Shown one piece after another: positions 3,457 through 56,141 of a stretch of DNA of 64,000 nucleotides (the stretch's first letter is position 1; each line of letters begins with the position of its first letter). This stretch comes from Porodaedalea pini (taxonomy: Eukaryota; Basidiomycota; Agaricomycetes; Hymenochaetales; Hymenochaetaceae). The stretch is from NCBI GenBank assembly GCA_002794775.1, contig NBAY01000012.1, positions 377,001 to 441,000 on the forward strand, given 5' to 3'. The notes under the pieces were generated by a model. The model saw only the letters and a list, made by a program, of their open reading frames with translations. It was not told the origin of the DNA and made no database searches. Position numbers and translations under genes: made by a program.

Positions 3457-5689
3457 CTGCCCTTTTCAGAAGTATTGTCACACATCAAATTCATGTGGTT
3501 TTGACGTGTCTTGCAGCATAACTGCCAAAATTTGAGTAAATGACAATTTACTGTGTCAATTCCTCACAATACATGTTCATTAAGCACTCAAAAAAATGTA
3601 CTTGCTCATCCAAATCCAAATCTGTAAAAATATCCAAGGTTAGATGAATTTTTTTGTCAAAATAAGTCAAACAATGTCGACCAGCCCTGTTTCAACACCT
3701 CACCCTCCCTATATGCAAAAATCATACCCCTTTCCTCTCATCCTATAATTTTTTTTCTCCACCTATAAATTAGGTTCACATGTATGGCAATCTTGTGCAT
3801 AAGTTTGGTGTCATTCTGTGCACTATTCGTGGTGTAATGGGGATGTTTCTGTTCTTCAGACACCTGCTCTCACTTGGGTTTGGACAGTCCATTTCATACA
3901 GCTCTGCCAATTTGACAGGTAAAAATACAAAACTTCTTGCACTACATAGACAATCCTATCTACTACAGCCTGGGTTATTTGGGGGCCCCTCCACCTTGAT
4001 TTGACACTGTAGTGGTAATTTATTTTTGACCTGCGCACTGTAGCACCATGCGCTGCCTGCACATCTGAAGTATAGAAGTTGGGAACAATGTGTTGCTTCA
4101 TAAGTACTACTCCATCTCAAGAAGAGATGGCTGCAGATATCTCACCGGCATACCAGGTGAGCGTATCCACCATGCAGGACCACTAGTAGATACACAAGTG
4201 TATGTTCATGCAAACAGACTCAAAGACGTCCTTTCAGATCCAGAACAGCAACAGCTGGCAGCCTCTTCTTGGTCAAGAGCAAGGCATAACCATTGTTGCC
4301 CACAGTCTAGACAGAAGAGCAGATGGCTTCGCTGAAGAGAGGTTGGTGTGCTACAATGGTCAGCGGTATATGCAGATTAGGGGTTGGCACATGAACACAT
4401 TCACCACAAAAACACCCTTCTCTCCCACCATGATGACATGTGGCAAGGCCCTCTCAAATGATGCACGATCCATTCTCTTCAAGCTGCACCAATCCAATGA
4501 GTTCACCATGGACCATCTTTCTGTGTTGATGGACGTCAATTGTCGAACAATCTATTAGATCATAAAAGACTGGGAGGCTACTAGGGGTGTTGAGAGAGAT
4601 GAAAAGAGGACTGGCTGGCCAAGGCTGTTGGACTATCCAGATGTACAGGTGAGGTGTAGTGTGCCAGCGCTGACAGATGTTACTCATCAGGATTCCATTT
4701 GCCACCAGTATTTCCTCAGTTCAGTCAATCAATGCAGGGACCTATTCCTTGACAAGCTGAGGCAGAAGCTCGGTGCATCTTCTGGTAAATACGTTTTGGA
4801 CTCTACAATATGAAGGACATTGGAATGGGCTGGATTCACTATGAAAAGGGTATGGTCTTTTGTTTTCAACTAGTCGAGCCCAAATCCAACCTGATCGAAG
4901 ATTTCAAAGAAGGCACGTGAATGCAGTGAGACTGTGCAAATACAATATCATCTTAAAATTGGCAAGAAATATGAAGCTGAACAGCTCATGTTCATTGATG
5001 AAAGTGCTTGCAACTGTCATACTTTCTTGAGAAAAAAGGCATGGGCTTTATGTGGGCATCAAGCCAGCCACAAACAGTTTTTCACCAGGGAAAAGAGGTA
5101 CACGTAGTCCCATCATACCTCAGGGTGTCATATGTCAAACTTCTTCCAGGTATTCAATCCTTCCAGCAATCTCTCTTGATGGAATGCTCAACTGCATCAT
5201 CTTGGAAGGCTCATTCAATACAGAATCCTTTACTGCTTTCATCACACATTTCCTCAATCATATGGAACCTTTTTCAGGACCAAACTCAGTCATTGTCATG
5301 GACAACTGTGCTATCCACAAGTCAAATGAAATTTGTGAGTTGATTGAATCCAGGTGCAGTGCTTTTTCCTCCTGTGCATCACTCCAGCACTGATGCATTC
5401 TGTAATTGCGTGTCTAGTGGCATGAAGCTTGAATTCCTTCCTGTGTACTCTTCAGATTTCAATCCAATCAAATTGGCCTTCTCACTACTCAAAACTCAAC
5501 TTTGATGACTTGCTCTGCCAGAAGAAGGAGGAGATGTTGTGGTGTATGCATGGCTTTATGGAGAGATTATGTTGATTAGCACAAATGACTGTTGAGCCTT
5601 CTACCAACACTGTGGGTATGTCTGCTGGCCCTGGTGCGTAGCTACCCTCAATTCTCAAGTGAAATCCTCTGACGACGTGCTCAGGTGAA
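3457..5689 (+). repeat. Element A, left terminal inverted repeat
   Basis: Reverse complement of 29797-38606 once the solo LTR (30251-30691) and element 4 (30752-36877) are subtracted. The lengths then match exactly at 2,233 bp. Only scattered substitutions separate the arms, for example at 5184-5280 and near the inner end at 5630-5680. The arm holds a transposase pseudogene and about 970 bp of outer sequence without a convincing ORF. The inner edge lies about 160 bp from the stop of gene X. Confidence 0.9.
4430..5688 (+). pseudogene. Tc1/mariner-like DDE transposase, left arm of element A (disabled)
   Basis: An N-terminal helix-turn-helix segment (start about 4430) is followed by spliced blocks of a DDE endonuclease. 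The first Asp is in FIDESACN (about 4995), the second in IVMDNCAIHKS (about 5300). The third acidic position reads NPIK at 5461-5472, where element B has NPIE, so the catalytic Glu is replaced by Lys (GAA to AAA). Further damage includes a TAG after the HTH block (about 4555), TGA TGA near 5502 and a frame change before the C-terminal GEIM...FYQHCGY block. A candidate intron lies around 4850-4878. The right arm carries the same TAG and the same Glu-to-Lys change. This enzyme would cut and join DNA at TA sites if active; as read it is dead. Confidence 0.85.
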
Positions 5690-5845
5690 TTGGCTAGGAC
5701 TGCTAGGGATACGTAGATTTATAAATAAGCTCTAAATTGTCATTTGTTCACTTTTCGATCACTGTTGGAAGTGGACTACATAAGATGAAGGAAATGTTTG
5801 CATAAAGAACAAAAGCAAAGTCATGAAACCAAGGAGAGGAATAAT

Positions 5846-7721
5846 TTACCGTTGAGCCCACTGATGCATGGCAGCTGCAAGCAGCAGGTCCACAGGTGCC
5901 ACAGCAGTGTCGACTTCAAGATTTGTGAAATCAGTTGTCACCATAATGAGCAGTGTTTGTAGGTCCCTCCTGCAGCTCGGAAACTTTGTTTTAGCCTCAA
6001 GCACTGCATGTTCCCAAAGATGTTTCAAAGTTTTGTCTGGTGGGGAGCTTGGGTGTGCATATGAGTTCCCATCCTCATGAAGCTCCCAGTCATCTACCAA
6101 GATTGCGTACAACTCTTGCTTTTGTGCAAGCATAGCGCGAGTGAACATAGCATCGTTAATTTTTCCTTCCAACTTCTTCAAAGTTCCCTTGATTTGCATC
6201 GCAGCATGCTGTACGTAGTGAAGCCAGTTCTTCTCCCCAATGGCATGGACTTTTGTGATCAAACATTGCAGCTTGATGGGTTGTAGGGTATTGTGATGAT
6301 TTGCATAGACATTTTTGAGCTCAAGAAAGCTGTCACGGATGGTCTCGGCGACTACTGCAAATCTGTCTTGTTCACCCTGAAGTTGTCTCACCTGTGCACA
6401 CAGCATTGCCACATAGCCCAGCAGGGTGGCAAGCCAGACATCAAGTTCATCTGCATCAAACTCCCAATATTCTCTCATCACTTTTTTTCCTGTTAGTTTA
6501 CTAGTCCACACCTTGGTGACGTTATTGCCATTGGCTATTTTTTTCCAGAATGTCATCCACACCAATGTGTCAAGCTGGTGGTATGCATTGAGTGAGTGAT
6601 ACCATTTGTTTGCCCATGGTCTGCCTTCCTTTTCTATTGTGTCCTCGGATATCTTCACTCCGATAAGTCCTGCATGTTCTTTGAGTAATTTGGTTACAGC
6701 CTCCTTCACAAGCACATTTGCCTCATCTCTCATCTTTGCCTTTGCCTGTCTCAAAGCTTTCTTTTTAATCAGTGCCAACAATTCTGACCCCTGCTCTACT
6801 GGAAGCTGTGTGTATTCTGAGGTCGGGGTGTTGCTAGCAGATGCAACTGACACATGAGAGCTCGGCAAGACAATGCTCTCTTTGGCTGGTACATTGAATA
6901 TGGAAGCATGGAGAGGGCTATACCAGTATCGTAGGTAGTCATTGAGGAAAAAATACATTCTGTCATAGAAATGATGGCGCCTATAGTTGAGGAGGTGTCG
7001 GCGCAGTATAGCATTATGTGCCTCCACCAACTGATGGTAAAATTAATCCCAGTAAGTTTGCTTATCAATGGCCAAAATAGGGACCTGCTTATGTTCAATA
7101 TAAGAGCTCGCTCCAGCACATGGATCTGATTTTGCATTGTGGCAGCTCCTGCATCATGCAATTCTTTCTGAATGTCCACTGAAGACTGAATGTAGTCTAG
7201 CTTTTGATCAACTTCCACATGGTTCTCTGCCTGCTGCTGCTCCAGTTCTGCCTGCTGCTGCTGCTCCCATTCTGCCCGCTGCTGCTCCTATTCTGCCCAC
7301 TGCTGTGCAACTTTCAGCTCCACTTCTACTGGAACTTTCAGTGCCACTTCTTCTGCAACTTTCAGCACAATCCTCTCATTGATCTGTGTAGATAACTCCT
7401 CTCATCATGTTTTCATACCCTGCTTTTGCTTCCTCCCTGCTGTCAGCCACTGTCCAGCGTGGGTCTCTTTCTCACCTTGAATTTCTAAGGATTCACCTTT
7501 TTCTTTTGATAAGGTGGCTTCAGCCACCACCGTCTTTGCCATCATCTGGATAAAGATCCCTGCAGAAGCTGCAAACCAAAGATAAATTGAAAGGGGTGAA
7601 AAAAGAAAGCAACTTGCTCTGACTTACTGTCTGATGTTAATGATTCAAAGAGATCATGGGATGCTGATGACCCACTTGTGCTGCTACTTAGCTGGTCCTC
7701 TTCCTCATTATGGCTCTCCAT
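5846..7721 (-). pseudogene. Element A gene X: coiled-coil protein of unknown function (decayed)
   Basis: Read on the minus strand from ATG at 7721: an acidic Ser-rich start (MESHNEEEDQLSSSTSG), a probable donor near 7628, a second exon from about 7570 with a Gln/Glu-rich coiled coil (plus-strand CTG/CTC repeats at 7225-7300), then a long all-helical domain open from 7030 to the TAA at 5846-5848. Several stops interrupt the coiled-coil exon, for example around 7400 and 7290. The order acidic start, coiled coil, helical region, and the position and strand opposite YZ, match gene X of element B, although sequence similarity is weak. No known domain is recognised. It is probably a structural or DNA/protein-binding accessory of the element, which is an inference from position only. 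Confidence 0.6.
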
Positions 7722-8015
7722 GTTGCGATCGAGATCTAGTGTGGTGCAACAAGGGGATATGTCCGAGACAACACGACTGCATGGCATGAGTGATAAGAGG
7801 GGACAATGTGAGTGTGAGCTTACATATATCTCAGCCATTGTCATGTGGACTGATCTCTATCTGGCAGGCCCCCAACACCTTACTGTACAGCTGGGATGAA
7901 GAAGTGTGCTAGGACTTGCCTTTTACAGTTTCTGACCTTATATACCCAGAGCACTAGCCGAATGCTGTAATCTAAGCATTGCATATTCACTTTTCCATGT
8001 GGATTTTTTTCTCTT
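7722..8015. promoter_or_regulatory. Divergent promoter region of X and YZ in element A
   Basis: 294 bp separate the start codons of the divergently oriented genes X and YZ. The equivalent gap in element B is 380 bp. A shared bidirectional promoter is the simple reading. TATAT at about 7930 is a possible core element, but I cannot assign a transcription start. Confidence 0.45.
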
Positions 8016-9561
8016 ATGCCTCAACGTACCAAAATCCCCTCCAAAAAGGCCAAAGTGGCTGAGGAAGCCAAGGCTATCAAAAATGTGCCCAAGCATCCCC
8101 ATGGCTGACCAAGAAAGATCGCAGAAGCAGCCGCAAGCCCCAAAGCAAAACTAGCCATTTGCAAGTCCCCACAAACTCCTGCACCTCAAACACCTTTCAA
8201 TTTGAATGCTAAACCGACCAGGAGGCCACTGAAAAAGTGTGCCAGAAAGGTGACTTGGACATCTTGAGAATCTATACTTACTTGTACTGACATTCTGCTT
8301 TTACTCTCTTCCTTTGGAACTGTCACGAACAGGATTACAACAGTGATAATGATGATGACGACGATGACATCAATGTCAATCCAGCTGCTGTAGCAGAAAT
8401 CTCAGTCCTTGATGTGGCACAAGCCAAGGGTTATAATGGTCCTGCTGATGAAACTCTACAGTTAGACAGTACTTATGAGGAAGTTCCCGACTTCCCATCC
8501 AATAGCAGCTTTTTTTCGCCGGGTAAGAGATATTTTTACATCATAAACATGGTCTTACATGTATATCAGATGGCCCTACCAACTGGAGTATTCCTTCCCT
8601 TGGAACAGCCAAGGCATGAGGGATGGTTACGTCAACACCAGCTGCAGACAGGGCAGACAAAGACATGATTGAAGTAAAGGTCTTGGTTTTGGATGGCATC
8701 AGCGGACGGGAGCTGATCTTGTGCTCCAACATGCTATTAAATGATTTGTTGGTTGAGGTTGCAAAGGTGACAAGAGGCTCCTGCATCATTACGTGTCTTG
8801 GAGTTGAGGGCCCATGGTGTATCAAAGAAGGCCCAAACAAATACCTTCTGGAGTATCTAGATAATCAGAGTGCATTGGATAAGGTCTTTGCAGAGGTCTG
8901 CAAACACTGCAAGGAGCAAGTGGCCAAAAAGATGAAAACTGAAAGTGATCCAAAGATCATCATCAGAGATCTCCCAGAGGTTTGTTAAATTGTGTTTCAT
9001 CACCAGCTATTTCAACTCAGATATTCTGGCTGGATAGGATTCTAACATGCAGGGCAAAAGGGGCAAAAAGACTCTGGCAAAAGCTAAGCCGACAGTAGTG
9101 CCACTCGATAACGTGAAGAGCACATATGATAATGAGATTGAGGAAATCATATGCAAGATTGTAGCGAGCTTCACATGTGATGAGCATGGCAGTAAACTGT
9201 GCACAACACTGAAAGGTATGCAGGAGCATGTCACATACACTATGGAGGATATCACTGAGCACGCGAAACTTCTTGTGAGTCTTAAATTGTCATTTTGCAC
9301 ACAAGTCTATATATCTCACTCAAAATGTCTATTGTTATCTCTAAGCACCAAAACACGCCAGGAGTGACCTACACTGATCTACCTGAGGCTCTTAAACTTC
9401 TAGATAGAAAGCCACACAAGTTGTACTCAGCTACAAGAGTAGCTGAGAGGAATGCAGAAGTTTATACCCATGCAGCTCCACCTGATCCTGTGTCACGCGA
9501 TGTAACACCAACCAGTTCATTGGGCACAGAACGAGCGGAATGCACGCGATGTACATCATGA

Positions 9562-10251
9562 AGTTGAAGAGCCTCGACTCAGCAATCAAACGGAGCGGTA
9601 CACCCAGATCGGCAGAGATTACCCGAACACGGAATGCACGCAATGACCAGATCACACGCATCAGCTACTCGGACTGACCCCAGTGCACTTATCTGTGTGC
9701 GTGTCCTCTCGACCCTGCCAAAGGTTTGTTCATTTGCCTTTGTCTAACGAACATGCACCAGCCCGGCATTGGTCGTTCCGGCTCCATACAAAGGATCCCG
9801 AAGCTCACTGATGCTATGCCAAGTCAACACGCACTGTCCCCGCCTTTCAGTAGTTCGGATCATGGAGCAGCTCAAAGGAACACTCAGGAGGCTCAGTGGT
9901 AGGACAATAGAGGACTCGTCTTATTTTATTTCACCTTTCATGTTTACGCAGGACATTTGTTTAGTATTTATAGAGCGCCGAATGTTGTAGATAGAACAGC
10001 AATTCCACCCCCGAGTTTTGATGCCTAACTTTGTGTGATATCTCTCAGGATGGTCTCTAGGTACTCCTCAGAGCCTTAGTGACTCGAATTGCTCACCTCA
10101 ACTTTGTTTTATTCGCGTTGCGCTCGTTGCACTCATTCTGTCCGTTCCGTCTTTGCCTCGTTCCGCTTCATTCTCGTTACCTCGACTTCGCTCCCTCTCA
10201 TCTCTTATCTTCCGATTTAAGTCCTGTATCTCACCCTGCTCTCTGGTACTC
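9562..10251. other. Sequence of unknown origin inside gene YZ of element A
   Basis: Together with 28969-29320 this makes about 1.04 kb lying between the zinc-like and SAM-like parts of YZ, where element B has only about 200 bp of coding linker. Base composition shifts to C/G-richer text from about 9480. I see no LTR, TIR or ORF that identifies it. It may be another insertion, or a lost exon/intron arrangement. Confidence 0.4.
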
Positions 10252-10686
10252 TGTTAGGACTTGAACTTTCACCTTTTCTTTTCTTTTCCTTTTTACCATT
10301 TCTTTCCTTTTAATCGCTCCTTTTTATTATATTTAATCGTCTTTCCAATCATTTCCCACACTCCTTCCACCAGACCTTCATTCATTCCATTCCAAGTTAC
10401 ATAAACTATACAGTACTTAGATAATCCAGTCTCACAATCGGCGTGAATAAAAGGTTCGAGGAACTCGCATGAACACTTGTTCTGCTTTTCCTCTTACCTC
10501 CACGACAACCTAGGTGAGACTGTGTCCCCTCCTGTAGTAGTGTATATTGTATTAATCCTCTTACCTCTGTGATGACCTAGCCTGAGTATAGCGTGTCCCG
10601 AGTCCCCGCTCGAGTATAGCACGTCCCAGACAACAGTCAGCCAAGGCCTGCCCAGTCCAAGTCGTCTCCCGGACTCCCACCTAACA
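10252..10686 (+). repeat. 5' LTR of gypsy element 1
   Basis: Begins TGTTAGGACTTG and ends CGCCTAACA-type (here CACCTAACA). It contains AATAAAAGG as TATA-like box and the conserved GTTCTGCTTTT start-of-transcript motif. Its partner is 28529-28963. Confidence 0.9.
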
Positions 10687-11148
10687 TAAAAGCAGAACCA
10701 CACCCAGGCTCATCCTCAGCGTACGTCGTCGCTGTCGACTCGCCTTCACTCAGTCTAGAGGAGCTCTCCCCTTGACAGACTTGACGTGTAAACCCCCTAA
10801 ACGACAACCCTCAACCCTGCCCGGACGTTTTTGGACATTCGTGTATTACATAAACTTTGCAACCGACTCTTCCCGACCCTGGCTCTCCGCATCTCCCTTT
10901 GGTGGAGAAGCCACTTAACTTGGATGTGGGTGACACACCGTGTACAGTCATCGACATCGTTGTCGATTGTTATCACTGTTGCCTCCTTCCGTCTCATTAT
11001 CAATTTTGCCGACAAACCCATTCAACGTTGGTGTAACCCCGGATCGAACGCACAACTGATCCCTGTCCCTCCACCATCATCAAGATAGATCTCACCGACG
11101 AACAGCAACAGGCCCTCCCTGCATCAGCCCGTTGGGATCCAGACCGAC

Positions 11149-11573
11149 TGTCAGAACTTGAACTTTTACCTTTTCTTTATTTCCCCTTTTCCTTTTCCTT
11201 TTCTTTTAATCACTCCTTTTCATTATCCCTAACCATCGTTCCAATCACTTCCCACACTCCCTTCATATAACCTTCATTCGTTCCATTCCCACTCATTATG
11301 TAATGTTAGGTAATATAGTCTCACGGTCGTCACTATATAAGGTCGCAGGAATCGCATGAACTCCTTGTTCTGCTTTTCCTCTTACCTCCGCGACGACCTA
11401 GGTGAGACTCGTCCCCCTTGTATTAGTCTAGTCTTGTATTAATTCCTCTTACCTCCACGACGACCTAGTCTGAGTACAGCGTGTCCCGAGTCCTGCTCAA
11501 GTATAGCACGTCTCAAACAACAGTCAGCCGAGGCCTGCCCAGTCCGAGTCGTCTCCCGGACTCCCGCCTAACA
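11149..11573 (+). repeat. 5' LTR of gypsy element 2
   Basis: TGTCAGAACTTG...CGCCTAACA. TATATAA lies 33 nt upstream of GTTCTGCTTTT. The PBS AAAAGCAGAAC follows one base after the LTR, at 11575. Confidence 0.93.
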
Positions 11574-12296
11574 TAAAAGCAGAACCCCACCCAGGCTCAT
11601 CCCCAGCGTACGTCGTCGCTGTCGACTCGCCTTCACTTGGTCTAGAGGAGCGCTCCCCTCGACGGACTTGACGTGTAGAACCCCTAAACGACAAAACCCT
11701 CAACCCTGCCCAGACATTTTCGGATGTTCGTGTATTACGTAAACCTACACCCGACCTTTCCCGACCCTGGCTCTCCGCCTCTCCCTCTGGTGGAGGAACC
11801 ATCTGACCTGGACGTGGGTAACACACCGTGTACAGTCCTCGACGTCGTTGTCGATTGTGCTCTCGGCCACCTCCTTTTGTTTGGTCATCAAATTTGCCGA
11901 CAAACCTGTCCTTCGCCAGCGTAACGTTCATCCGGACAACCAGCCCCTCCCAGTTCCCCCCCCGGTCTAGTCAACATAGATCTTACCGAGGAACAACAGC
12001 AGGCTCTCCCTCATTCGTCGCGCTACAACACCGAACGACAGTCGTACGTAGCCGACGATAGAAACCACGTCACTCATAACCTCTGGTGGAGTGACATTAG
12101 ACATGCCTGGTACTCAACTGACCCATCAGGCGAAAGAACTCGGTGGGCGCCTTGAACCCCTCGCGCCCCAGCATCCCCTACCGTTTCGACATCGTCGGTC
12201 GTCCTTCCCAGCGAACCAGGAGGATACCAAACGCCCCGCAGAGACTCGTCACCGCCGACACCCCCTGAATGCCTAACACACACGCCCGTACCAGTG

Positions 12297-13364
12297 ATGT
12301 CAGAAGGCTTTACCCAAAGGCAGCAACAGGAAATTGCAGTGATCGTAGCGGCTGCCTTTACCCGTGCTGCAACGAATGCCCCTGCAGCCCAAGCCCCAGC
12401 TCCCTCGATCGACGTCGCCCGGCCACGCGAATTTGCTGGCGGCGATGACTACCTCGACTTCAAGCGTGAAGTCCTTCTCTTTGTCTCGGCAAACCCCTCG
12501 AAGTACCCCTCGTCGTTGAGCAAAATCTATGTCGCCCTCTCCTACCTCAAGGGTGGCAACGCGTCGACGTGGGCACAAAACTACGTCCAGGAATTCACAA
12601 CGGGCGGCGTCGTGAGCTTCACGGATGACTGGACCAAGTTTCAGGAATGACTGGATGCTTCCTTCGACAACCCAAACAGGAAGGAGAAGGCGTTGAAGAA
12701 GTTCCGAGACAAGGTCCAGAAGGACCTCTCTGCCAACGAGTTCTTCCAGGATCTCGACGTGATCATCAAGGCAGCGGAGCTGAAGGATGATAGCGTCATT
12801 TGCGACCGCCTGAAGCGTGCAATGAACATCGAGGTGGTCCGCGGGGTGTTGAGGTCGACGCCAGTACCGACGACGTATGAGGCATGGAAGAAGAAAGCCG
12901 TCGAAATTGACCGAGGCGAACAACAGATTCGCGCGATCCAACGAGGTAGGACATTACCATTCACACCCCGCCTGACGCCCCAACAAGCACCCCCCACGCG
13001 CCGACAGGTGGTGGCCCCGCACATCAACAAACGCGACACGACTGGAATCACCTTTGGAGGCGCTGGCCAGCCGATGGACGTTTCGATGAACGAAGCGCAA
13101 CGCCGACGCGCATGCTGGATCTGCAGTGGTTTGGGCCACTTTAAGGACAAGTGCCCGCAGGCGAAACCGATCATCCAGCATATGCTGGAACTGATGGCAC
13201 CAGGTGAACGTCGCGTCCTCGCCGATGAGCTCGGAGCGATGAAGGAATCGGCATTCGAGGAAGTCGTAGACACTCGAAGGTCGATGGTGGAAGAATACGT
13301 TGAGGAGGGAGAGAACGACGAAGAGGTTGTCGACTCGCAGTGTTTTGCGAGTGGTCAGGCGTAG
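12297..13364 (+). pseudogene. gag: Gag of element 2 (one nonsense codon)
   Basis: Frame opens at ATG 12297 (MSEGFTQRQQQE) and ends TAG 13362-13364. A TGA at 12648-12650 replaces CGA of element 3 and splits it. The retrotransposon Gag fold region contains the block YVALSYLKGGNASTWAQNY. A CCHC zinc knuckle CWICSGLGHFKDKC lies near 13114, followed by an acidic tail. Gag packages the RNA in the particle. The frame ends just after the slippery heptamer at 13340-13346, which here reads GTGTTTT instead of GGGTTTT. Confidence 0.88.
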
Positions 13365-16990: not shown

Positions 16991-17415
16991 TGTCAGAACT
17001 TGAACTTTTACCTTTTCTTTATTTCCCCTTTTCCTTTTCCTTTTCTTTTAATCACTCCTTTTCATTATCCCTAACCATCGTTCCAATCACTTCCCACACT
17101 CCCTTCATATAACCTTCATTCGTTCCATTCCCACTCATTATGTAATGTTAGGTAATATAGTCTCACGGTCGTCACTATATAAGGTCTCAGGAATCGCATG
17201 AACTCCTTGTTCTGCTTTTCCTCTTACCTCCGCGACGACCTAGGTGAGACTCGTCCCCCTTGTATTAGTCTAGTCTTGTATTAATTCCTCTTACCTCCGC
17301 GACGACCTAGTCTGAGTACAGCGTGTCCCGAGTCCCGCTCGAGTATAGCACGTCTCAAACAACAGTCAGCCGAGGCCTGCCCAGTCCAAGTCGTCTCCCG
17401 GACTCCCGCCTAACA
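16991..17415 (+). repeat. 3' LTR of gypsy element 2
   Basis: Directly follows the G7 tract and the pol TAA. It matches 11149-11573 except at about five positions, such as GGTCTCAGG versus GGTCGCAGG. Confidence 0.93.
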
Positions 17416-44900: not shown

Positions 44901-45071
44901 AGGGCCCATGGAACTTACCAGGGAAGACATATGCTTACCAGATAGCACCTCTTGCAACTGCTCAGAGTCTTCCATGGTGTCTTCATGATCATGAACTTCA
45001 CTGGGTGCTACACAAAATGCCTGTTTGTAAGCCACCAAAGACTTAGAATGTGGTGATCTATTCCGTGCCAT
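41961..45071 (-). pseudogene. Element B gene X: coiled-coil protein with 15-residue C-terminal repeats, unknown function
   Basis: Three exons fit in phase: 45071-44786, 44723-44311 and 44258-41961, with GTAAGT...TTTCAG and GTAAAG...TTTAG introns, giving 999 codons. One in-frame TGA (44820-44822, codon 84) interrupts exon 1, so it is listed as a pseudogene; it may be a simple CGA-to-TGA change. Exon 1 is acidic and Ser-rich. Exon 2 is a Lys/Glu-rich coiled coil. Exon 3 has a large helical domain, then a Ser/Pro/Arg-rich low-complexity stretch with a KKKNR basic patch, then about nine tandem copies of SGREDRDYQRREYSY. No known family is recognised. The Arg/Tyr-rich tail recalls RNA- or condensate-forming tails, which is an inference. 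Layout matches gene X of element A. Confidence 0.65.
41979..42416 (-). repeat. 45-bp tandem repeat array in gene X of element B
   Basis: About nine near-perfect 45-bp units coding SGREDRDYQRREYSY. Some units have the variant SRRGGRDYQRREYSY. Because 45 is a multiple of three and the unit lacks stops in several frames, long frames also open on the plus strand (41930-42752) and in another minus frame. Those are by-products. Confidence 0.9.
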
Positions 45072-45451: not shown

Positions 45452-48400
45452 ATGCCGCCTCAACGTGTCAGAAAGAAGTCCAAAAAACTCAAAGACGGCG
45501 AAGAACTAGCTGCAGAATTAGCTGTGCAGATGAAGAAACGCCCTGTTGGTCGCCCCAGGAAAAATGAAGTCCCCAATCAGGTCCCCGAAACTCCCACAAA
45601 AAAGCAGTCGAAATCGAGTGGGAAGAAATATGCTACAACAGCAAAGCCGACCCGCCGAACTGTGAGTTGTGAAATTTGATGCAAATGCTCTCTCTGACCG
45701 GTTTTCATGCCCATAGCCGCGCAAGAAGGGCAATGACAAGGATACAGTTGAACAGGAGCATTCGCCTGAAGATCAGGGGGATATATCCATTGCGGACGTC
45801 GTTCGGGCTTCAGGACTTGGCTTGAACGACACTATGAATGAAACGCAGGGTTTTGACGATGACAGATCGGCCTTCGATGAAATTCCTGACTCCCCTGACA
45901 AGCCTGATGAGCGTTCTTTCCATCTTGATGATGGTACGAAACCTCCATTCATTGTTGCCTAAGGCTGTGGCTAAGAAAAGTATAGCTGGTGAGTATGTGG
46001 ACTGGAATACTCCCTCCCTTGGACATGCAAAAGCTTATGGATGGATCACATCGACACCTGCTGCAGAGAAAAAGCCCGAACTGGAAGTCATGGTAAAAAT
46101 TCATGACGGTACTGGCGTGCGAGACATGAAGATCAACTCCAAGATGTCGCTGGCTGATTTGATCAATGAAGTGGTTTCAATCACCCGGGGCCATTCTACA
46201 TTCGACCAACTTGGTTACACAGCTTGCTGGTCTGTGAAGTCTGGGACAAAGCTTGAACCAGAATATTTGGATACACAAGACCAGTTGGACGTGCTGTTTG
46301 TCAGCAACGGACTACGGGTACGCAAATGGTAGCCGGGTCGCGCGGAACTCAGTCAGAGGAGGAGGGAGACAAGAGAGAGAGCAGTGAGCCAGGGGGAACT
46401 GACACAGCGCGGAGATAAGGAGCAGCTTCTGGACGTAGCCAGGTAGAATTGACCAGGTCGAAACTAGGGGATAAGTACAGGAGGACTACCTACTTATATA
46501 CCCTTCAGCGGCTGCGCACGGACCAGGAAATTAACTACTACATAAGGATAGATGATAGAACGTTGTGGAACTTCATAGAATAATGAAATCATAGGATCGG
46601 TCAGCGAGTAAGGATAGTGCGAGAAGGAGCGTAATGAATAAGCGTGATTAGTGATGGATGGATAAGATAAGATAAGAGAAAATGATAAGATAAGATAATT
46701 TAAAAAGCGTCCATGACATGACCCTCCCCTTCAAGGCGAGCGTCCCGATCGCCCTTGTTCCCTACCCTGGAACTTACCGGCCCACCACTGTGCCACTCTT
46801 TTCTGTCTCTCAGGCTCCGTCATTTCAAACACGGGTCGGAACTTCAGCTGCGACATCTCTAGGGTGTTGAGGGCGCAAGGAGCACTGGGAGTTGATTTAT
46901 GAAATTCGTCAATGGCCTCTTGAGAGTTCGTCAAATTCTCAATTGGCTCCCAGGTGCGTTCTTCGTTCGGATACCCTTTCCAATGTACGAGGTATTTGAG
47001 CTTCCCTCGCACAAGTTTGGAGTCGACAACCTTTTCGACCTCATATTCCGGCACATCGTCAATGATTTCGGGCGGGGGTGGAAGATCCTGCTTTTGCGAC
47101 GTATACTGCGGCTCGTGGTATGGGGAGAGGAGCACTTCATTGAAAACCGGATAGACTTTTTTCCATGTACGTGGAAGTTTAAGTCTATATGCGGACGTGC
47201 CGATTTTCTTTTCGACAATGAAAGGCCCATAACGTTTATCTCCCAGCTTCTTCATAGGACGATCTGTCTTTAAGTGAGTTCCTTCGAGCATGACCTTTTC
47301 CCCAGGTTTATACTCGATGGATTCTCCCTTCGTCCTGTCATAGAAGCGCTTCATGGTTTCGGCCGCATGCTTTAACGCCGATTCGGTTTCCTCCCTGATC
47401 TTGGCCATCCGGTCGGCAAACTGCTTAGCGGACTCATTGGTCGATTCGCGTCTAGGATTCGTGCCCTTATATGGGTGTCTCCCATGGTTGACGAAAAAGG
47501 GTGACGCTCCTGTCGACGTTTGTTCTTTGTCATTGTACGCGAATTCCGCTAGCGCAAGCCATTCCGCCCAGTCCAACTGATGGTGGTTAACAAAGAGACG
47601 AAGGTACTGTTCAATCTCTTGGTTTATCCATTCTGTCTGACCATCTGTCTGTGGGTGATATGCCGTTGACGGGTTTCCCTCGATGCCCAGTAACCGGTAT
47701 AGTTCGTTCATGAATTTGGACTCGAACTGTGATCCTCTGTCATGAATAAACTTGTGCGGTATGCCGTGTAGCCTGAAGACATGATCCCGGTAGAGCCTCG
47801 CCATTCCTTCCGACGTTATGCTCACTGAGGTAGGGATCGCATGCACCTGTTTACTGAACCTGTCAACGAAGACACAGATTGCGTTATGCCCATTGGACTC
47901 GGGTAGTTCGCCGATAAGGTCTGCTGTGACGATTTCCCAAGGACCTTTCGGGATCTTGTTTGGGTTCAGAGGATTGTGCGGTTTCGCTCTGTGTGCCTTC
48001 GTACGTTGGCACGCATCACATCCCTCGACATACATTCGAACATCTCGTTGGATTCCCGGCCACCAGTAGTTGCGTGTGATCAACTCATGGGTCTTGTAGC
48101 GTCCTGGGTGTCCTGCGAGCGTGCTGTCGTGATGGTTTCGAATGATGTCTTCTCGGAGTTTATGGTCTTTCGGCACGTAGATCCTGCCCTTCCACATCAA
48201 CAACCCTTCTTCTTCCTCCCACTCTCGTTCCTTCTGCTCTAACGCCTTCACAACTGCTCTGTCCCTGTTGTTTCATACCCTTTTAATTCGTTTAACAAAG
48301 TCTGCATCCAGCGCTTCTTGCAGTGTTTCGTTTACAAATAAGTCCGGCTTGAGCAAAACAATGTCGATATTGTCGTTCTCCCCCCTCTCATGATCCGCTC

Positions 48401-51400
48401 GTCTCGAGAGGAGGTCAGCCTTAGTCATCAGGGCACCTGGTTTATGGAACAGTTTGAAGTCGTAGTCCGCTAACTCCTGTAGCCATCTCGCTTGTCGGTG
48501 GTTAATCTTCTGGGGTTTTCGGAAATACTGGAGGTTGAGGTGATCCGACCAGATTTCGAAGGTTTGCGTTGCCCCTAGAAGATATTGTCGCCAGTCATCC
48601 AGTGCGCACATGATCGCGAACATCTCTTTGTCATAGATTTCGTAATTGCGCTCTGCTTGGCTAAGTGCTTGCGATCGGTATGCGATTGGATGCCACTTTC
48701 CGTCAACGAATTGGGACAGAATGGCGCCGTTAGCGAAATGCGACGAATCAGCCTCCACCCGAAATTGACCGTCATCAGTAGGCACTGTGAGTACAGGTTC
48801 TTCACAGAGCTTCTGTTTCAGACGTTCAAAGGCCTCCTGTTGCTCCACCTCCCACTTCCACTCTACATCTCTGGTCAACACTGTCAAGGGCTTCGCATAG
48901 TGACTGAATGCTAGGATGAAGCGGCGGTAATAGTTGCAGAACCCAAGGAAAGACTGTAGTTCTTTCTTGTTCTTAGGCACTGGCCAATCTTTTACACCCG
49001 CCACTTTGGCTGGATCCATGCGAATCTGTCCGTTGCCGAGGATATGCCCAAGATAGTTCACGGTCTCTTGAGCGAAGCTGCACTTTTCTGGCTTTAAGAA
49101 CAGCTTGTTTGCTCGCAACACTTCCAGGACTTGTCGGACGAGTTTGTCATGATGTTCGCGAGTTCGTGTGAAGATCAGGATGTCGTCCATGTAGACTATG
49201 ACGTGTCCATCATTGACGAGTTCTCGGAAGATTTCGTTCATGAATCCTTGGAAGGTTGCCGGTGAGTTTGTGAGACCGAAAAACATGACCGTTGGTTCGA
49301 ATAGACCGCGGTTTGTCCTGAAGGCGGCTTTATGCTCGTCGCCCTCTCGAATCCGAATGTTATTGTAACCCCAACGTATGTCAAGCTTCGTGAAGAATTT
49401 TGCCTGTTTCGTTTTGTCAATGAGCTCTTGGATTAGAGGTAACAGGTATTTGTTCTTAACCGTCATCTCGTTGAGCCGGCGATAGTCCTGTACGGGGCAA
49501 AGCTTGCCATCCTTCTTTTTTATGAAGAAGAAGGGGGATGCCATCTCAGATTGAGAGTTACAAATACGGCCAGTTCTCAAGTTTTCGGTGAGGAATTCGT
49601 CCAGTGCCACCTGTTCGGATGGGCTGAGCGGGTAGATTTTACAGTCAGAGAGCTTTGATCCCGGCTTGAGTTCAATAGCATGATCCCAAGGGCGTCTCTC
49701 TGGTAACTGATCAAATTCCTGTTCACTGAAGACGTCCGCGAACTCTTTGACATAGTTCGGGACTTCCTCGAGCACCTGTTGTCTGACCTTCAGTGCTTTT
49801 CTCGGATCGGACTTAATGTACCTGTCCCAATCGAAGAGGAAGAGCTGATCGCCGTCTTCAAGTTCCACCAAATCAAGGTTTTCGTCGGGGTCTGCATCAA
49901 TGTCCTCTAGACTACGGATATAGCCGCATACATCGGGGCATCGATCAAATTCGATCGTTGATTTTTGCCAGTCAATGTTGGGATTGTGCAGCTTTAACCA
50001 TTCATGTCCAATGAACACATCTGTTTTCCCTAGATCTGTGACCGCGAAGTGGATGCGCTCCAAATGATCTTTAATCGTCATGCGCATTTCCACAAACTCT
50101 GTGATCGAGCCGTCCTTGTTGAGCGTGCCGTCAGCATTATAGACTCGGATTGGGATGGGTGTCTTTTTTGTCCGGATCTGATGCTTTTCGACGAAGGATC
50201 GGTTGATACATGAGCCAGTGCAGCCACTGTCCAGTAGGGCGTCTACCTTGAACTGGTTACCGGTGTCGGTCGTTTGAAGGAGAATCGGTACCATGAGCTG
50301 TTGCCCCCGAGACCCTCTTACGAACCGTTTCGGACCCCTCAGGTCCCTAACAGCTGCCACGGCATCTGGTTCTTCTAGCACAATGATTTGACTCACCGTC
50401 TCTTCATTCGCTTCAGCATGCCTCTGCTGTTTCATCCATACTCGGAGAGTCGTTAAAGCACTTTCGAGTTTATCCTCTTTGAGACGCCGTACTACCCATG
50501 GGGCCGTAAAGGGGACAGGGCGATCTCTCCAGGACTTCCTCTCAGCTTGTTTCGACGAGTTTTCATTTTTCACGGATTTCGGTTCAGTTCCGGCCAAGGA
50601 AGAAATAGAATTAAAAGATTCGGAACAGGGTTTTACATGATTTTTTGACACAGGAGTAGGACGAGATGATGAGGCAGACGTGTTGTTACATATAGGCATA
50701 TCTATACTACTAGCTACTGGTACAGGGACAGAAGGAATATTTTTGCGAGTGACATTGCTTTTTACATTTTTTTGTATTTTATCTAAATTATCTACAGAGT
50801 CCATAGAATTATCAAAAATGGCCGTTTGAAAAACCGAAACTGAACCTATCCCAGTCAGTGCCGTGTTCACTGCTGGGGTTCCGCAAAATCCAACTCCCGC
50901 TCAAAGAGCGCCTCCTCTTCTTCCTCTGCAAAGTCTGACTCCTTGAGTGTCGCGGTCTCGTCTGCCCAGACTTTTCTCTCTCAGGGTTCCATTCCCATCA
51001 ACACAGCCCTTATCACCTTCTTCTGCATCGGGCAATTCCTCTGTAGATGTCCAGATTCCTTGCAGTAGTAGCAGAGTCCGGCTTTCCTCAGCTCTTCGAG
51101 TGAGACGTCCATCGGCTTCCCCATGCCTCCGTATGTGACTCCGGTGGCATCGCGTCTTTCGGGGATTCTCGGTGTGAACGTCTGGGTAGGTTTTGGTGGG
51201 AGCACCTGAGGTCTGGACGGGGCAGCGCGCATTTGTTTGATGGCCTTCATCTGACGTCTAGCGTTGTCGAATCGAATGGCTTTTTCTTGCCAGCCTTTGT
51301 ACGTGGTTGGGACCGTGTCACTCATTTCGATTCGGTATACGATCTCTCTATCCAAGGCTTTCGTCAGTTTGTGGATGAGGGTGTCGTCATTCTTTGCGTC

Positions 51401-54186
51401 ATCGTTGTATCCTGCCGCACGGCGATAGATGTCGAACTGCTGGAAGAATTGGTCGGCTGTGATGTCTCGGGTGTGCTTCCAGCTATCCAATTTTTGCATG
51501 GCGTTCATGCGTTCATTCGGATCTCCGAACGCTTTCTCCAGCTGTTCGTTAAACTTCTGGTGACTGACGAGCGAAAAGATCAGATAGCCATCCATCTTGA
51601 TGCTTTCCAGGAAGTTCTGTGCCCAGAGTGCGGCCGAGCCTTCCGTCATGAACGACAACACGAAAAGGAAGTAGTCCTTGTCGTTCATGAAGTCCTCTGC
51701 GTTAGCTTCAACGTAAAGGGTGATGGCACGTTCGAACTTCTTGTAGTCTCGCCCATTGAACGCCTCGGGTTTGGCGATATGTCTTCCTCCACTGCGGCTT
51801 GTTGGTGGAGGGACAGGTGCGGCTGCGGCTGCTGGCGTGGGGGTTGCGAGTAATCCCAGGCCGTGTAGCGCGTTGATGATCTCCTGCATCATGTCGTTTG
51901 AGATCGTCATTGTTGCGGCTGCTGGCGCAGCTGGGGCTTGGGGTTCTGCCATGATAGGCGGTGGTGTTGGTGATGGGTGGGGTGGTTGGTGGGCTCCTAG
52001 CTCGTCGTCTAGGTGTACCAGGTCGTCGTCGGTCAGGGGTGGTAGTTGTGCGAGGACAGCGTCGGCAGTGTCTTCTGGTGGTGTATTCCACCGCTGTGCC
52101 GCTGATCCAGGCAGTCGAGCGTACGGGTGTGGAGCCAGCTCAAATCAGAGACAACACTGCCAGCCGACAGGTGGTGCGGACGCCTGCGGATCTGATTGAG
52201 CGCTGTAACAAAACTCCTGATGTGGTGGTCGACTTTCACTTGCTGATCAAACCCGGATCTTCCTCTGTGAAGACTCCAACGGGCGCCAAGGGACCTTTCC
52301 GAAGATCACCCCCAAGGCCTGGTAGCTACTCTCGAGTGGGTCGGACTCAACGTTACCCCCTCTCAAACGAGCGCTAGTTGATCGAATAGAAAGAGGACGG
52401 CGGGTTGTGAAACGAGTGAGTTTAATAATGAAGGTAAGGAATTAACGACGTATCGGCCTGATCGATGCACGTGAGATCGATCTAAGAATAGGTGTGGGTC
52501 GAAGCGATCGCAGTCGGGGTCGCAGTCCAAGTCGTCGGACGCGTCGGATGAGAATGTTGGTCTAGAGTTCGGGGTTACGGACAGGTAGTGGTCGGTTTTG
52601 AGGTTGTTGGACGAGATGAGGGTTGAGAGTGATGATGATAGATAGTAGGAATAGTTCAATGGTGAGAGTGATTTGCAGGGTACAGGTGAAGGTGTAGATG
52701 GTAGCGTGGTAGAGAGATCGTTGTTGGTAGGAGATGCGAATGTTTAGAGCCAGCGTGGTGTTGGTGACTGAGAATGCGCAAGGCGGTAGGGGTGAGTTTC
52801 GACCTTGTGTCAGCGACGGACTACGGGTACGCAAATGGTAGCCGGGTCGCGCGGAACTCAGTCAGAGGAGGAGGGAGACAAGAGAGAGAGCGGTGAGCCA
52901 GGGGGAACTGACACAGCGCGGAGATAAGGAGCAGCTTCTGGACGTAGCCAGGTAGAATTGACCAGGTCGAAACTAGGGGATAAGTACAGGAGGACTACCT
53001 ACTTATATACCCTTCAGCAGCTGCGCACGGACCAGGGAATTAACTACTACATAAGGATAGATGATAGAACGTCGTGGAACTTCATAGAATAATGAAATCA
53101 TAGGATCGGTCAGCGAGTAAGGATAGTGCGAGAAGGAGCGTAATGAATAAGCGTGATTAGTGATGGATGGATAAGATAAGATAAGAGAAAATGATAAGAT
53201 AAGATAATTTAAAAAGCGTCCATGACACTGTTCAAACAAGTTCACAGGCATCAAGCAGCTGAAAAGAAGAAGAAACGAGGTAACGAAAACCCCGGAATTG
53301 TCATTCGGAATCTCAGTAATCAGGTTCATCTATAGTATTTGATGTATAAAGTGGTTCCTGACATGCAGTGAAGAATACACGTGGGAACAATGGGAACAGC
53401 AATAAACAGCAAAGTGCAACTAGAACGAATGCGACTCCTTCAGGGGTCACCGGTGCTAAGGAAGCTTACGATGCTGCACTCGAACGGATTATGGCGCAAA
53501 TCGCAGCAGCGTTCAAATGCGATAAACACGACGGCAGGCTCTGTGGTAAAATAAGAGGGTCAAAAGACCATCTTATGTATTCCAACAAACATCTTGTTGA
53601 ACATGCAAAACTGATTGTGAGTCCATTGACAAAGCACAATCTCACCGGACTAAAAGCATACTTTGTCCAGTATAAGAATACTCCCGGAGTCAAAGTGGAC
53701 GAAGTACCGGGGCAACTGAAAGTATTGGACAAGCAGTGGAAAGCAGCTGACAATGCCAGTGCAGGAACCGGCTCTGACATAGCAACTGGGCCTACAACAT
53801 CCCTCCCCAACAGTGCTCCTGTGACAGCTGGAACAGTGGCAACTGTAGTGCCAATGCAACCTTTCAACCAGCCGGTCATTGCCCAGCACTACGAAATGCA
53901 TAACCGGGTGATAGCTGAGCGCAGGCCACGCGATTACCCTTCTGTTCGGAATTGGATTGAATCATTGCACGATGACATGGAGAGAGGCCGCGATGACTAC
54001 CAATACAGGTCTCTGCTACCTGTTTTCGAGGCCAATGATGTTAAACACTTGGATGACTTGGCTTACTTAGAATTTGGAAGGCTCGAGAAGATGGTTATTG
54101 ATGCTCAAGTGGAGGCAAGCATTGGGTTACTCAATCGTATCGTTCGATATGCGCAGGAGGATGTTTCTCACATCAAGGAACAGTAG
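45452..54186 (+). CDS. Element B gene YZ: AT-hook / beta-grasp-like / CxxH-C / SAM-like protein, interrupted by gypsy element 5
   Basis: Exons 45452-45661, 45717-45933, 45986-46298 plus 53233-53315 (joined once element 5 and one CTGTT copy are removed), 53369-53616 and 53671-54186. All phases fit and give 528 codons without a stop. From the N-terminus: a Lys-rich start, AT-hook KKRPVGRPRKNE, a second basic patch, an acidic stretch, WNTPSLGHAKAYGW, a beta-grasp-like region (LEVMVKIHDGTG...), a basic patch, the zinc-like CDKHDGRLC plus His, a linker, RDYPSVRNWIESLHDDME, and a SAM-like helical end (HLDDLAYLEF...GLLNRIVRYAQED). AT-hook and possible zinc ligands suggest DNA binding. Similar multi-copy proteins of unknown function are, from memory, common in Agaricomycetes. 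The last 45 bp lie inside the right arm. The insertion makes this copy non-functional now. Confidence 0.7.
46299..46718 (-). repeat. 3' LTR of gypsy element 5
   Basis: On the minus strand TGTCATGG...GCTGACA. It follows the GAAGGGGAGGG polypurine tract (plus 46722-46733). Confidence 0.93.
46731..50885 (-). pseudogene. pol: Pol of element 5: PR-RT-RNaseH-IN-chromodomain (one nonsense codon)
   Basis: Minus strand, -1 frame relative to gag and open from the heptamer at 50891-50885. Order: a Ser/Lys-rich start, protease LLDSGCTGS (about 50240), RT with GLTNSPATFQ and YMDDILI (49280-49180), RNase H, TGA at 48273-48275, integrase zinc finger (H-H-C-C, about 48120-48010), integrase core with TAYHPQTDGQTE (about 47640), and a canonical chromodomain (VEKVVDSKL...YLVHWKGY...TWEP, about 47040-46930). 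The RT is complete. Apart from the single TGA the polyprotein reads through about 1,384 codons. The chromodomain binds methylated histone tails in related elements and directs integration. Confidence 0.92.
50850..50891 (-). promoter_or_regulatory. -1 ribosomal frameshift signal of element 5
   Basis: On the minus strand: heptamer G GAT TTT (50891-50885), 7-nt spacer, then CCCAG-CAGTG (50877-50868) pairing with CACTG-A-CTGGG (50860-50850), a ten-pair stem with one bulged A and a 7-nt loop. The original gag stop (TGA 50869-50867) lies in the stem. GGATTTA is the known MMTV pro-pol slippery site, so GGATTTT is plausible. Confidence 0.75.
50867..51952 (-). pseudogene. gag: Gag of element 5 (one premature TGA)
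   Basis: Minus strand from ATG 51952 (MAEPQAPAAPAAATM). A Pro/Ala-rich start is followed by a Ty3-type capsid region (FLFVLSFMTEGSAALWAQNF), then GVTYGGMGKPMDVSLEELRKAG and the zinc knuckle CYYCKESGHLQRNC (about 51080). TGA at 50981-50983 ends the open frame. Reading on in the same frame gives an acidic tail (FAEEEEEALFERELDFAEPQ) like that of the other family, ending at TGA 50869-50867 next to the frameshift site. I therefore take 50981 as a nonsense mutation. Confidence 0.85.
51953..52807 (-). other. Leader of element 5 with self-priming site
   Basis: Untranslated leader between the 5' LTR and gag. AGGTCGAAACT on the minus strand (plus 52795-52805), two bases from the LTR, is the exact reverse complement of AGTTTCGACCT in the LTR (plus 52964-52974), which lies 35 nt from the start of TATATAA (plus 53003-53009). 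This is the Tf1-type primer arrangement. Open frames elsewhere in the leader are unsupported. Confidence 0.75.
52808..53227 (-). repeat. 5' LTR of gypsy element 5
   Basis: 420 bp with TATATAA on the minus strand. It differs from the 3' LTR at about five sites (for example GCGACGG/GCAACGG on plus). Most differences are C/T or A/G at or near CpG. Confidence 0.93.
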
Positions 54187-56141
54187 TTATGCGTACATCA
54201 TATAGACAGAATATATTACATTGTTGGACCAGTTGAGACAGTGACAAGGAAGCCTGTATCCACTCGATGAAGAAACCCAACACTAACAGAGATAACCGCA
54301 ATGATGATAGAAAGCACGACAGTCCGCAGCACTGATAGACATGGTTTCACCGTAAAGCTTTGCGAATACTGAAGCGTCCGTTTCCTCATCACTGAATTTG
54401 ACCCGACGAAGTCGAGATTTCAGCAGAGAGAATGCCAGCTCGATCGGGTTGAAGTCCGGAGAATATGCAGGGAGAAATTCCAGCTTCATGCCCCTGTGTG
54501 GAGTCAGATCAGTAAGAGCCCTGCGTCGCAGCACGACAGGTCAAAATAGACGGACCTTGACTCAATGAGTTCGCGGATTTCCAGTGACTTGTGGATTGTG
54601 CAGTTGTCCATCACCACGACAGAGTTTTGGGCCGGCCAAGGTTGCATGTGGTCCAAGAGATCCCTGATAAATGCAGAGAAGGAGGTGGCATTGAAGGATC
54701 CTTCCAGTATTGTACAGTCAAGCATGCCAGTTGAAGTGATTGCGGGCAAGATCGAATACCTAGAAGAGGCAAGCAGTCAGATCTGCAGTCATAAAGGTAA
54801 GCATCGCACCTTTTTCCCCGTGTAAAGATCACTTTCCAACATGCCTGATAACCCTGCAAAGCCCATGCTTTCTTCCTCAAGAAGGTACATCGGTTGCATG
54901 CGCTCTCGTCGACAAAGATGAGCTGTTCTGCCTCATATTGAGATCCCATTCTCAATGTGTACCAGAGCCGAGCGGACTCGCTGCATTCAAGTGCCCTTTT
55001 CGATATCTTGAGCAGAGTAAGTTTGCTGATGCGAAGCCATAAGCATCACCGCACCGTCTTCAGAGTGAACCCAGCCCGGCGCAGAGACCTCCATACTGTA
55101 GTGTCCGAAACCTTCTTGCCTGTTACCCTTTCCAGCTCCTCCCTCACCTCATCTAAGTACTGGTCCTTGCGATGCTCTATCATGCTCAAGAGATACTATA
55201 GTTCAGTTAGCCGCAGCGAGTCATTACAATTCAAAAAATGCACTCACCTGTGTATCCGCATAATCAAGCAACCTTGGTCTTCCAGTCCTCGTGCCCTCCT
55301 GTCATAAATGCCCCATGCGCTCGTGTTGAGCAACAGTTCGGTGGATTGTTGCTCGATGGATATCTATTACCCTGGCCAGGTCATGCACGGTGAAGAGTTG
55401 TGACTGATACAGTCTGAATATGATGTGTCTTGCATCATCTGAGAGTGCCTTGCCTGAAACCATCATGGAACGACCTGAGAGGAGGAGGAAGTAGAGTGTT
55501 GGCTTTTGTGTTTGCATGGCGGTGGCTTGGCTAACACGTGCTCACGTGCTCACAGGTGTTGGTAGTATGCACAGAAATTTGAGCATAGCAGTCGAAGCAC
55601 AAAGCGAATGGACAGGAAACTTGCAGGGAAGATGGCTTTTATGTGTCCGATAATTACACAAAAAGAATCATAATCTTAGCGGTCTTCTCGCCCGTGCTGC
55701 AAGACCTGTTGTGAGAAGAGGAAGGTGGAAAGAGCTCAAAGTGGAACACAAACCTTGCTGCTGCACCATGAATACTGCATGGATTGGCTTCAGACTTGCA
55801 GGAGCTGTTGGTATAGTCATATACTTAATTTACAGTCATGGGAAAGAATTTTATAGGTAGATGTAGGGGAGCCATAATTTTTGAATCTCAGTGGAAATGT
55901 ATGAGAGAACAGACTGGCTGCACTTGTTTGATCTCCACCCACCTACACAGTCAATGTATTGCTCCCTATTTTACATATTTCTGCTCCTGAGAACCATGCC
56001 TATTTTTTGAGTACTTAATGAGCAGGTACTGCGCAGAATTTACAGAGAAAATCAACATTTATTCTATTTTTCGACGTTTTGGCTCAGACACGGCTCACTT
56101 CATGTGAAATGCATGTGTCGCAGGACTTATGAAAATGGCTG
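54142..56141 (-). repeat. Element B, right terminal inverted repeat (2,000 bp)
   Basis: Mirror of 39533-41532 with no length difference. It contains the 3' end of gene YZ (54142-54186) and a complete transposase reading, so it looks like the original end from which the left arm was copied. Confidence 0.92.
54283..55517 (-). pseudogene. Tc1/mariner-like DDE transposase, right arm of element B (two nonsense codons)
   Basis: Predicted protein segments are identical to those of the left arm (40157-41391), including HTH, intact D-D-E residues and both TGA codons (54302-55517 region, mirrored at about 55304 and 55048). It runs convergent with gene YZ; the two stop codons are about 100 bp apart. 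Confidence 0.85.

Follow-up and report, generated by a model that had tools for sequence, protein, structure and literature searches.

Tc1/Mariner-Type Transposons With a Transposase Gene in Each Inverted Arm and a Shared Pair of Putative Accessory Genes in Porodaedalea pini

Two Elements of Similar Design

The genome of the basidiomycete Porodaedalea pini (assembly GCA_002794775.1) contains two multicopy families of elements, with dozens of copies each, and one member of each family, A and B, lies in the stretch of contig NBAY01000012.1 analyzed here (C12:377001-441000, 64,000 nucleotides; the window). A and B are adjacent, long inverted-repeat elements, and retrotransposons interrupt both. 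An earlier note on this DNA had described TA ends, similar tips, and inverted arms of 2.0–2.2 kb, each with a DDE transposase, and all of this was borne out for A and B; however, it had taken them for two copies of one element, a view replaced here by two multicopy families and a probable third. Between the arms lies a divergent gene pair, with YZ read leftward and X read rightward in both elements. Our preferred interpretation, to which we assign a probability of about 0.6, is that these are Tc1/mariner-type transposons of three genes, whose arms would be subject to gene conversion and whose X and YZ would be accessory proteins of the element itself. All family counts come from this one genome (53.27 Mb in 201 contigs) and are lower bounds (two genome searches scored 40 of 548 and 40 of 242 candidates). 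Gene models of X, YZ, and the transposase were drawn manually, without RNA.

The transposase pieces of B and A both matched DDE_3 above the cut-off. HTH_38 was detected in the B transposase at E 2e-5, with 24.6 bits against a cut-off of 27, and nothing significant was obtained with the shorter A piece. The D, D, and E motifs were visible, with a 34-residue spacing counted by hand across an inferred splice site. The closest named proteins were from Sanghuangporus (57%, with DDE_3), Tricholomella (52%), and Amanita (48%), and a sequence search of the PDB gave only a weak match to Sleeping Beauty (E 0.16). The TA target was present at the ends of A, B, and a relative of A on contig C72. Starships are also large fungal DNA elements that carry genes, but they are defined by a tyrosine-recombinase captain and, as described for Tremella, measure 42–606 kb (PMC13066641), as against a DDE transposase and 8.7–9.7 kb here; a Pfam scan of X, YZ, and the arm pieces revealed no captain domain of this type.

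Structure and Target Site of Element B

Element B is bounded by TA at 39531-39532 and 56142-56143 and has the tips TACAGCCATTTTCATAAGT. Its arms (39530-41574 and 54100-56144) are 99% identical over 2,045 nt; the innermost 40 nt or so carry fixed left-right differences and are probably non-homologous, so that the true arm would be about 2.0 kb. The net length of about 9.68 kb given earlier was confirmed once the Gypsy element at 46299-53227 was removed. The modelled starts of X and YZ lie about 480 bp apart, back to back. The features of B and of its target are as follows (LTR, long terminal repeat):

39404..39532, plus strand: left end of a B-type miniature element, the target of B (85% to B arm positions 2-129)
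39533..41574, plus strand: B left arm with transposase gene (99% mirror of 54100-56141; exons at about 40208-41391 modelled by eye; DDE_3 at E 4.3e-11 and 1.8e-9; HTH_38 at E 2e-5)
41964..44258, minus strand: B YZ exon 3 (Y), with 59 matches in its own genome and 45-bp repeats at 41886-42490
44296..44975, minus strand: B YZ exons 1-2 (Z, coiled coil), modelled by eye
45452..46298, plus strand: B X exons 1-3, with an AT-hook-like motif, an acidic stretch, and a conserved core; interrupted by the Gypsy element
46299..53227, minus strand: Gypsy LTR retrotransposon nested in B X (420-nt LTRs at 98.8%, 5-bp duplication, RVT_1 at E 9e-37)
53228..54186, plus strand: remainder of B X exon 3, followed by exons 4-5, with a Cys/His stretch and a SAM-like C-terminus
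54100..56141, minus strand: B right arm with the second transposase gene
56142..56868, minus strand: remainder of the B-type miniature into which B inserted; the empty site is visible in the mirror half of the miniature, at 56727-56748

B is flanked on the left by miniature arm positions 2–129 and on the right by the same arm from position 128 onward. The left junction has the sequence CTGCTCAT-TA and the right one TA-AGTACTC; in the mirror half of this miniature, which is intact, they are joined as CTGCTCAT-TA-AGTACTC. The TA-duplicated target and its empty site are therefore visible together. A further copy (C19:121549-122533) shows the same junction, at the TA of miniature position 128, on its left side only. 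Insertions may favor this TA.

The C-terminal part of YZ in the window copy holds an expanded 45-bp tandem repeat of GREDRDYQRREYSYS units (41886-42490). The Y exon of this copy has 765 codons, as against 645–660 in most of the listed copies that are long and open.

Structure and Corrected Length of Element A

Element A is bounded by TA at 3455-3456 and 38607-38608 and has the tips TACTGCCCTTTTCAGAAGT. Its right arm is split into an outer piece (38610-36878), with 0 differences in 1,733 nt from the left arm, and an inner piece (30250-29797), with 12 in 454. Its features are the following:

3457..5689, plus strand: A left arm with inward transposase gene (mirrors 38606-36878 and 30250-29797; DDE_3 at E 1.3e-9 in 5031-5390)
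5849..7721, minus strand: A YZ gene, coding for a coiled coil followed by a helical region; bounds approximate, drawn by eye after the relative on C72, whose Y exon is matched by 5858-7042 at 82%
8015..9493, plus strand: 5' part of A X, with approximate start, cut by an insertion
9494..29313, no strand: nested LTR-type insertion cluster in A X, not part of the element (break against relative L071; LTR-like repeat families)
29314..29686, plus strand: 3' part of A X (SAM-like end), 85% to the A-type X exon
29797..30250, minus strand: inner piece of the A right arm (12/454 differences from the left arm)
30251..36877, no strand: second nested LTR-type insertion, in the A right arm
36878..38606, minus strand: outer piece of the A right arm (0/1,733 differences from the left arm)

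The breaks in A were placed at about 9494 to about 29313 and at 30251-36877 by comparison with the less interrupted relative L071. Since this comparison sets the bounds of the insertions, the net length of A becomes about 8.70 kb, and the 9.86 kb proposed before was too long. LTR-type repeats, both direct and inverted, are densely nested at 10252-36877; the repeat scan of the window comprised the 20 largest repeat families and the 25 longest inverted pairs.

The relative at C72:73759-82466 measures 8,708 bp and has TA ends. A distinct miniature element, about 148 bp long, directly adjoins it on either side (C72:73614-73761 and 82464-82611), and the two share the TA at each joint. This miniature occurs at about 50 more places (52 and 51 tip matches, 0 in the control). 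The matching flanks of C72 had been considered as a product of conversion, an explanation discarded in view of these two miniature copies.

Families, Tips, and Miniature Copies in the Genome

Searches of the genome gave 59 matches to the B Y exon, 117 to the X exon, and 44 to the A-type Y exon. Merging yielded 41 B-type and 29 A-type YZ clusters, in which a large insertion may split one copy into two counts. The distance between the matched YZ and X exons was nearly constant: 2,169–2,179 bp in 21 of 24 close pairs of B and 1,920–2,078 bp in 14 of 15 of A. Full-length copies measured 9,311–9,411 bp in B (7 of 13 listed arm pairs) and 8,545–8,729 bp in A (4 of 12); the longer arm pairs presumably contain insertions, as both window elements do. 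At the DNA level A and B match only over about 540 bp, within the transposase. A third family, C, is probable from sequence comparison: at C4:1455033-1460601 and C150:15345-27194, paired transposase exons are 66–67% identical to those of B, and X is 36–37% identical to B and 31–32% to A; YZ was not seen at these two places.

With up to three mismatches, 906 B tips and 313 A tips were found in the genome, and since the reversed patterns gave none, these tips are not due to chance. Within the window the tips occurred solely at the element ends, save for one-mismatch B tips at 39404 and 56867 in the miniature, and shuffled patterns gave 0. Counting by eye among the first 100 tip matches of each family, there were at least 20 inverted B tip pairs 840–854 bp apart and at least about 24 A tip pairs 1,038–1,083 bp apart, which correspond to miniature copies.

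The Transposase and the X/YZ Pair as One Unit

To the question of whether X and YZ recur together between inverted transposases with TA flanks, raised in the earlier note, the genome gave a positive answer for at least two diverged forms. From 137 matches to the B transposase exon, 123 of at least 73 bits were kept and 14 weaker ones were dropped before counting. These 123 formed 46 inward-facing neighboring pairs, and X or YZ coding sequence was present within 2 kb inward of 113. The remaining 10 exons comprised two at contig starts, two on inner sides of family C, four with X/YZ 2.4–20 kb away, and two without any X/YZ (C78:87604, where two A arms are found, and C19:403688). At this last place (C19:403688-403912) the exon is 56% identical and no X/YZ was seen nearby; it is perhaps from a fourth family or a simple relative. 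Five weak exon matches (38–47% over less than 50 amino acids), dropped from the counts, may be ordinary Tc1 relatives.

Conversely, 54 of 60 X clusters were located within 3 kb of a transposase exon (34 of 37 B-type; 20 of 23 A- and C-type), using an exon list that also contained five weaker matches. Five of the six misses were 4–11 kb from an exon and one (C23) 36.6 kb. The count of 60 omits small A-type fragments, including two fragment-only copies, C105:59548 (about 3.6 kb off) and C71:66243 (about 50 kb); with these two added, the figure becomes 54 of 62. In the 30 fetched loci, the window's own two included, the arm adjoined Y in 28 and X in 28. That X might prove an ordinary host gene, as had been contemplated, does not hold within this genome, and no convincing stand-alone X was found among its X clusters.

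These data bear on the idea of a composite transposon, in which two single-gene Tc1 elements by chance came to surround a two-gene host segment and later moved jointly. Each arm alone does possess one tip and a whole transposase gene, and ordinary DDE_3 Tc1 elements are known in Pleurotus ostreatus: TIR_1 measures 1.6 kb, has 214-nt repeats and a TA duplication, and, as described, encodes only a transposase (PMC4905642). It thus shares DDE_3, the TA duplication, and inverted repeats with A and B and differs in its 1.6-kb size and single gene. However, no second, inner tip was present in the arms of either window element, 113 of the 123 stronger exon relatives adjoin X or YZ, and the same design is kept by diverged families. 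A chance composite is therefore quite improbable; it is largely refuted here and would at most describe a distant origin.

Proposed Exchange Between the Two Arms

It had been left open whether the arms would mirror each other when aligned; they do align as mirror images. Both arms could be read in 15 elements, for most copies over the roughly 1.1 kb per arm contained in the fetched loci. The left-right difference in these averaged 1.5%, as against 4.3% between elements. Fourteen fixed left-right differences were excluded from the variant counts; they fall in the innermost 40 nt, which are probably not part of the true repeat. Of the variant states, 272 were common to both arms of one element and 40 differed; changes private to one element were in both arms in 17 cases and in one arm in four. 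From the rate of private change in the cargo of 14 elements, 117 left-right differences would be expected, and 38 were seen. The effect was strong in C15 (2 against 36 expected), C5 (2 against 14), and C38 (0 against 7). In addition, both transposase exons had identical scores in 32 of the 46 pairs (21 of 30 plus 11 of 16), and with the partners shuffled neither group exceeded 7. In window A, the outer arm showed 0 differences in 1,733 nt, compared to 12 in 454 for the inner piece severed by the retrotransposon (Fisher p 6e-9).

We infer from this contrast in A that gene conversion from arm to arm took place after insertion, which is the simplest reading of the sequences. Alternatively, the arms could be alike because transposition was recent, each jump copying or renewing them. 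In favor of this, differences of all kinds are few in some copies, such as C35, and four of the 14 elements were at or slightly above the expectation without conversion (C24, 6 vs 5.6; C28, 9 vs 6.7; C46, 8 vs 6.8; C35, 1 vs 0.8), so that conversion, if correct, must be patchy. Arms renewed with every jump would not account for A, in which the severed inner piece differs and the outer arm does not, and C15 has accumulated 85 private cargo changes and yet only the two arm differences. We therefore regard recent transposition as an unlikely explanation of the arm identity.

Properties of the X and YZ Proteins

The earlier note had the same internal genes in the same order and orientation in A and B, with strongly diverged cargo. 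Position, orientation, general layout, and the homology of X stand: three exons of X are 40, 37, and 31% identical between A and B (E 2e-27 to 2e-14). The YZ proteins, by contrast, have no detectable sequence similarity (best E 1.9) and are alike only in position, orientation, and general layout. For both genes, "accessory genes" is a better term than cargo.

No homologue of X at E 0.001 was found among 7,996 candidates scored from 5.8 billion proteins. YZ residues 196-700 had one homologue among 7,995 candidates scored, 94% identical and located on a 4.5-kb contig. The same protein database contains agaricomycete relatives of the transposase; nevertheless, the absence of X and YZ homologues says little because transposon-encoded genes are often unannotated. 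X gave no match to the patterns of IMG/VR and none by sequence in the PDB, and a profile of its C-terminal part gave nothing of weight (best E 0.15). Pfam and NCBIfam scans of X and YZ showed no recombinase or kinase of weight. The predicted structure of Y was unusable (predicted local distance difference test 35). An apparent recurrence of the last 30 X residues at the end of Y was rejected, as the mirror arm, which overlaps the X end, explains the likeness.

Could X and YZ be host-useful cargo or passengers that the transposon does not need? Large fungal elements such as Starships do have cargo genes, as described in PMC12134995, and YZ is unconstrained within B and cannot be aligned between A and B. 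On the other hand, a convincing stand-alone X was lacking, the pair and its orientation are identical in both full families, and X has been kept across the A–B split, over which the DNA matches only in part of the transposase. This makes a passenger status rather improbable. Another idea is a selfish role, in which X and YZ would act as killer and antidote, or as a drive pair, and so maintain the element in the population. A divergent pair with a fast-changing partner, YZ, would suit it. The size, layout, and SAM-like and AT-hook-like features suggest nuclear proteins instead, a drive pair would be superfluous in a genome with dozens of copies, and general family scans of X and YZ gave no toxin-like match of weight, so that we hold such a pair to be very improbable. 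An accessory role is more likely than host cargo, a killer pair, or a chance composite.

Decay of Copies and Evidence Against the Proposed Roles

In the cargo of 15 elements, C-to-T changes affected 15.9% of CpG cells and 0.2–0.6% of cells in other C contexts, a pattern that we take as the mark of methylated CpG. Transversions avoid this decay. For X (21 copies), 11 non-silent and 7 silent transversions (ratio 0.32, p 0.022) suggest constraint, a result that comprises only 18 variants and is uncorrected for several tests.

Apart from the patchiness of conversion, several observations, including this small sample, weigh against the proposed interpretation. Within family B, YZ showed no constraint (35 non-silent and 4 silent transversions, ratio 1.83, p 0.30; 24 copies, residues 1-610). 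Purifying selection on YZ is hence unsupported by these counts, and the element might do without YZ, or selection of a different kind might act on it. The SAM-like end of X is ambiguous: in structure comparison, SAM tied with RAD51 N-terminal domains, the best Foldseek E was 0.23, and Pfam gave no SAM. Both transposases of window B share one premature stop. Among the best-scoring matches examined for stops, X was whole in 24 of 33 fetched stretches, with a length in threes in 22 of these 24 and stop-free in 3 of 24; YZ was stop-free in the aligned frame in 5 of 24 copies. The C-to-T changes fall on silent, non-silent, and stop sites in about equal measure, so that most copies are dead or dying.

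Two other features of the window lie outside the elements:

1984-2750: palindromic sequence (arms 2092-2333 and 2403-2644, 95%), another miniature element or a fold-back repeat
62109-62909: part of a gene that probably belongs to the host, matching BNR and Sortilin-Vps10 (E 1e-7)

Discussion

According to what is known of the Tc1 family, transposase from either arm would pair both ends, excise the element, and insert it at TA, and the same enzyme would also mobilize the miniature copies. Gene conversion between the arms would continue after insertion, keeping two near-equal transposase copies and equal ends. Less surely, X and YZ would be nuclear accessory proteins, comparable to the additional ORFs of ciliate Tc1 elements and acting either as transposition co-factors or by countering silencing through CpG methylation: X could be a DNA-bound oligomer, with its AT-hook-like motif and SAM-like end, and YZ its fast-changing coiled-coil partner.

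Tc1 elements are described as about 1,300 bp long with one open reading frame (ORF) (PMC7325037). Fungal examples include Tc1-mariner elements of 1.8–2.3 kb with terminal inverted repeats (TIRs) of 36–70 bp in Sclerotinia (PMC4188875) and a 3,972-bp mariner family named in Marasmius oreades (PMC9674265). Precedents for multi-gene Tc1/mariner elements are found in ciliates. Tec of Euplotes and TBE of Oxytricha have a DDE transposase and two more ORFs (PMC7325037, PMC4724952), as A and B do; the Tec TIRs are about 700 bp, and the extra ORFs of TBE are under selection, the 57 kDa one being much less conserved. They differ from A and B in their ciliate hosts and single transposase ORF, and in a recombinase ORF in Tec and a zinc finger/kinase ORF in TBE, domains not found in X or YZ by Pfam and NCBIfam, with the ORFs compared by description only. 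Sardine (about 6.7 kb, up to four ORFs) and Thon of Paramecium are likewise multi-ORF elements; their TIRs are long, at 425 and about 700 bp, and Thon has solo-TIR relatives (PMC3464196). Unlike the arms of A and B, their TIRs are themselves palindromic and would be too short for a whole transposase, and a tyrosine recombinase is present. A fungal Tc1 element that combines a transposase in both arms with a further pair of genes was not found in the open literature searched, with Repbase, subscription papers, and a 2017 fungal survey outside that scope.

That X and YZ are accessory proteins of the element, whether co-factors or anti-silencing factors, is a guess, although the one we prefer. Anti-silencing is slightly favored over a co-factor because copies decay at CpG and YZ changes fast. 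VANDAL transposons are Mutator-type elements of plants. Their VANC protein, encoded by the transposon, strips silent marks from its own copies in Arabidopsis and diversifies fast (PMC10398659). VANC serves only as a working model for X and YZ, and no sequence relation is to be expected. A wider proposal, which we put forward tentatively and consider possible rather than probable, is that these elements represent an undescribed Tc1/mariner class of Agaricomycetes: a palindrome of two spare, mutually converting transposases with its own anti-silencing or transpososome pair, X and YZ, in which YZ would be in an arms race with host CpG methylation.

In this fungus, the usual Tc1 machinery bears a fixed accessory module of two genes and a duplicated transposase. 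The palindromic arms provide a countable natural assay of gene conversion, in which each copy holds its own control (the cargo) and its own test (the arms). Should movement, or escape from methylation, depend on X and YZ, these elements would offer a natural system for the contest between a DNA transposon and silencing in fungi.

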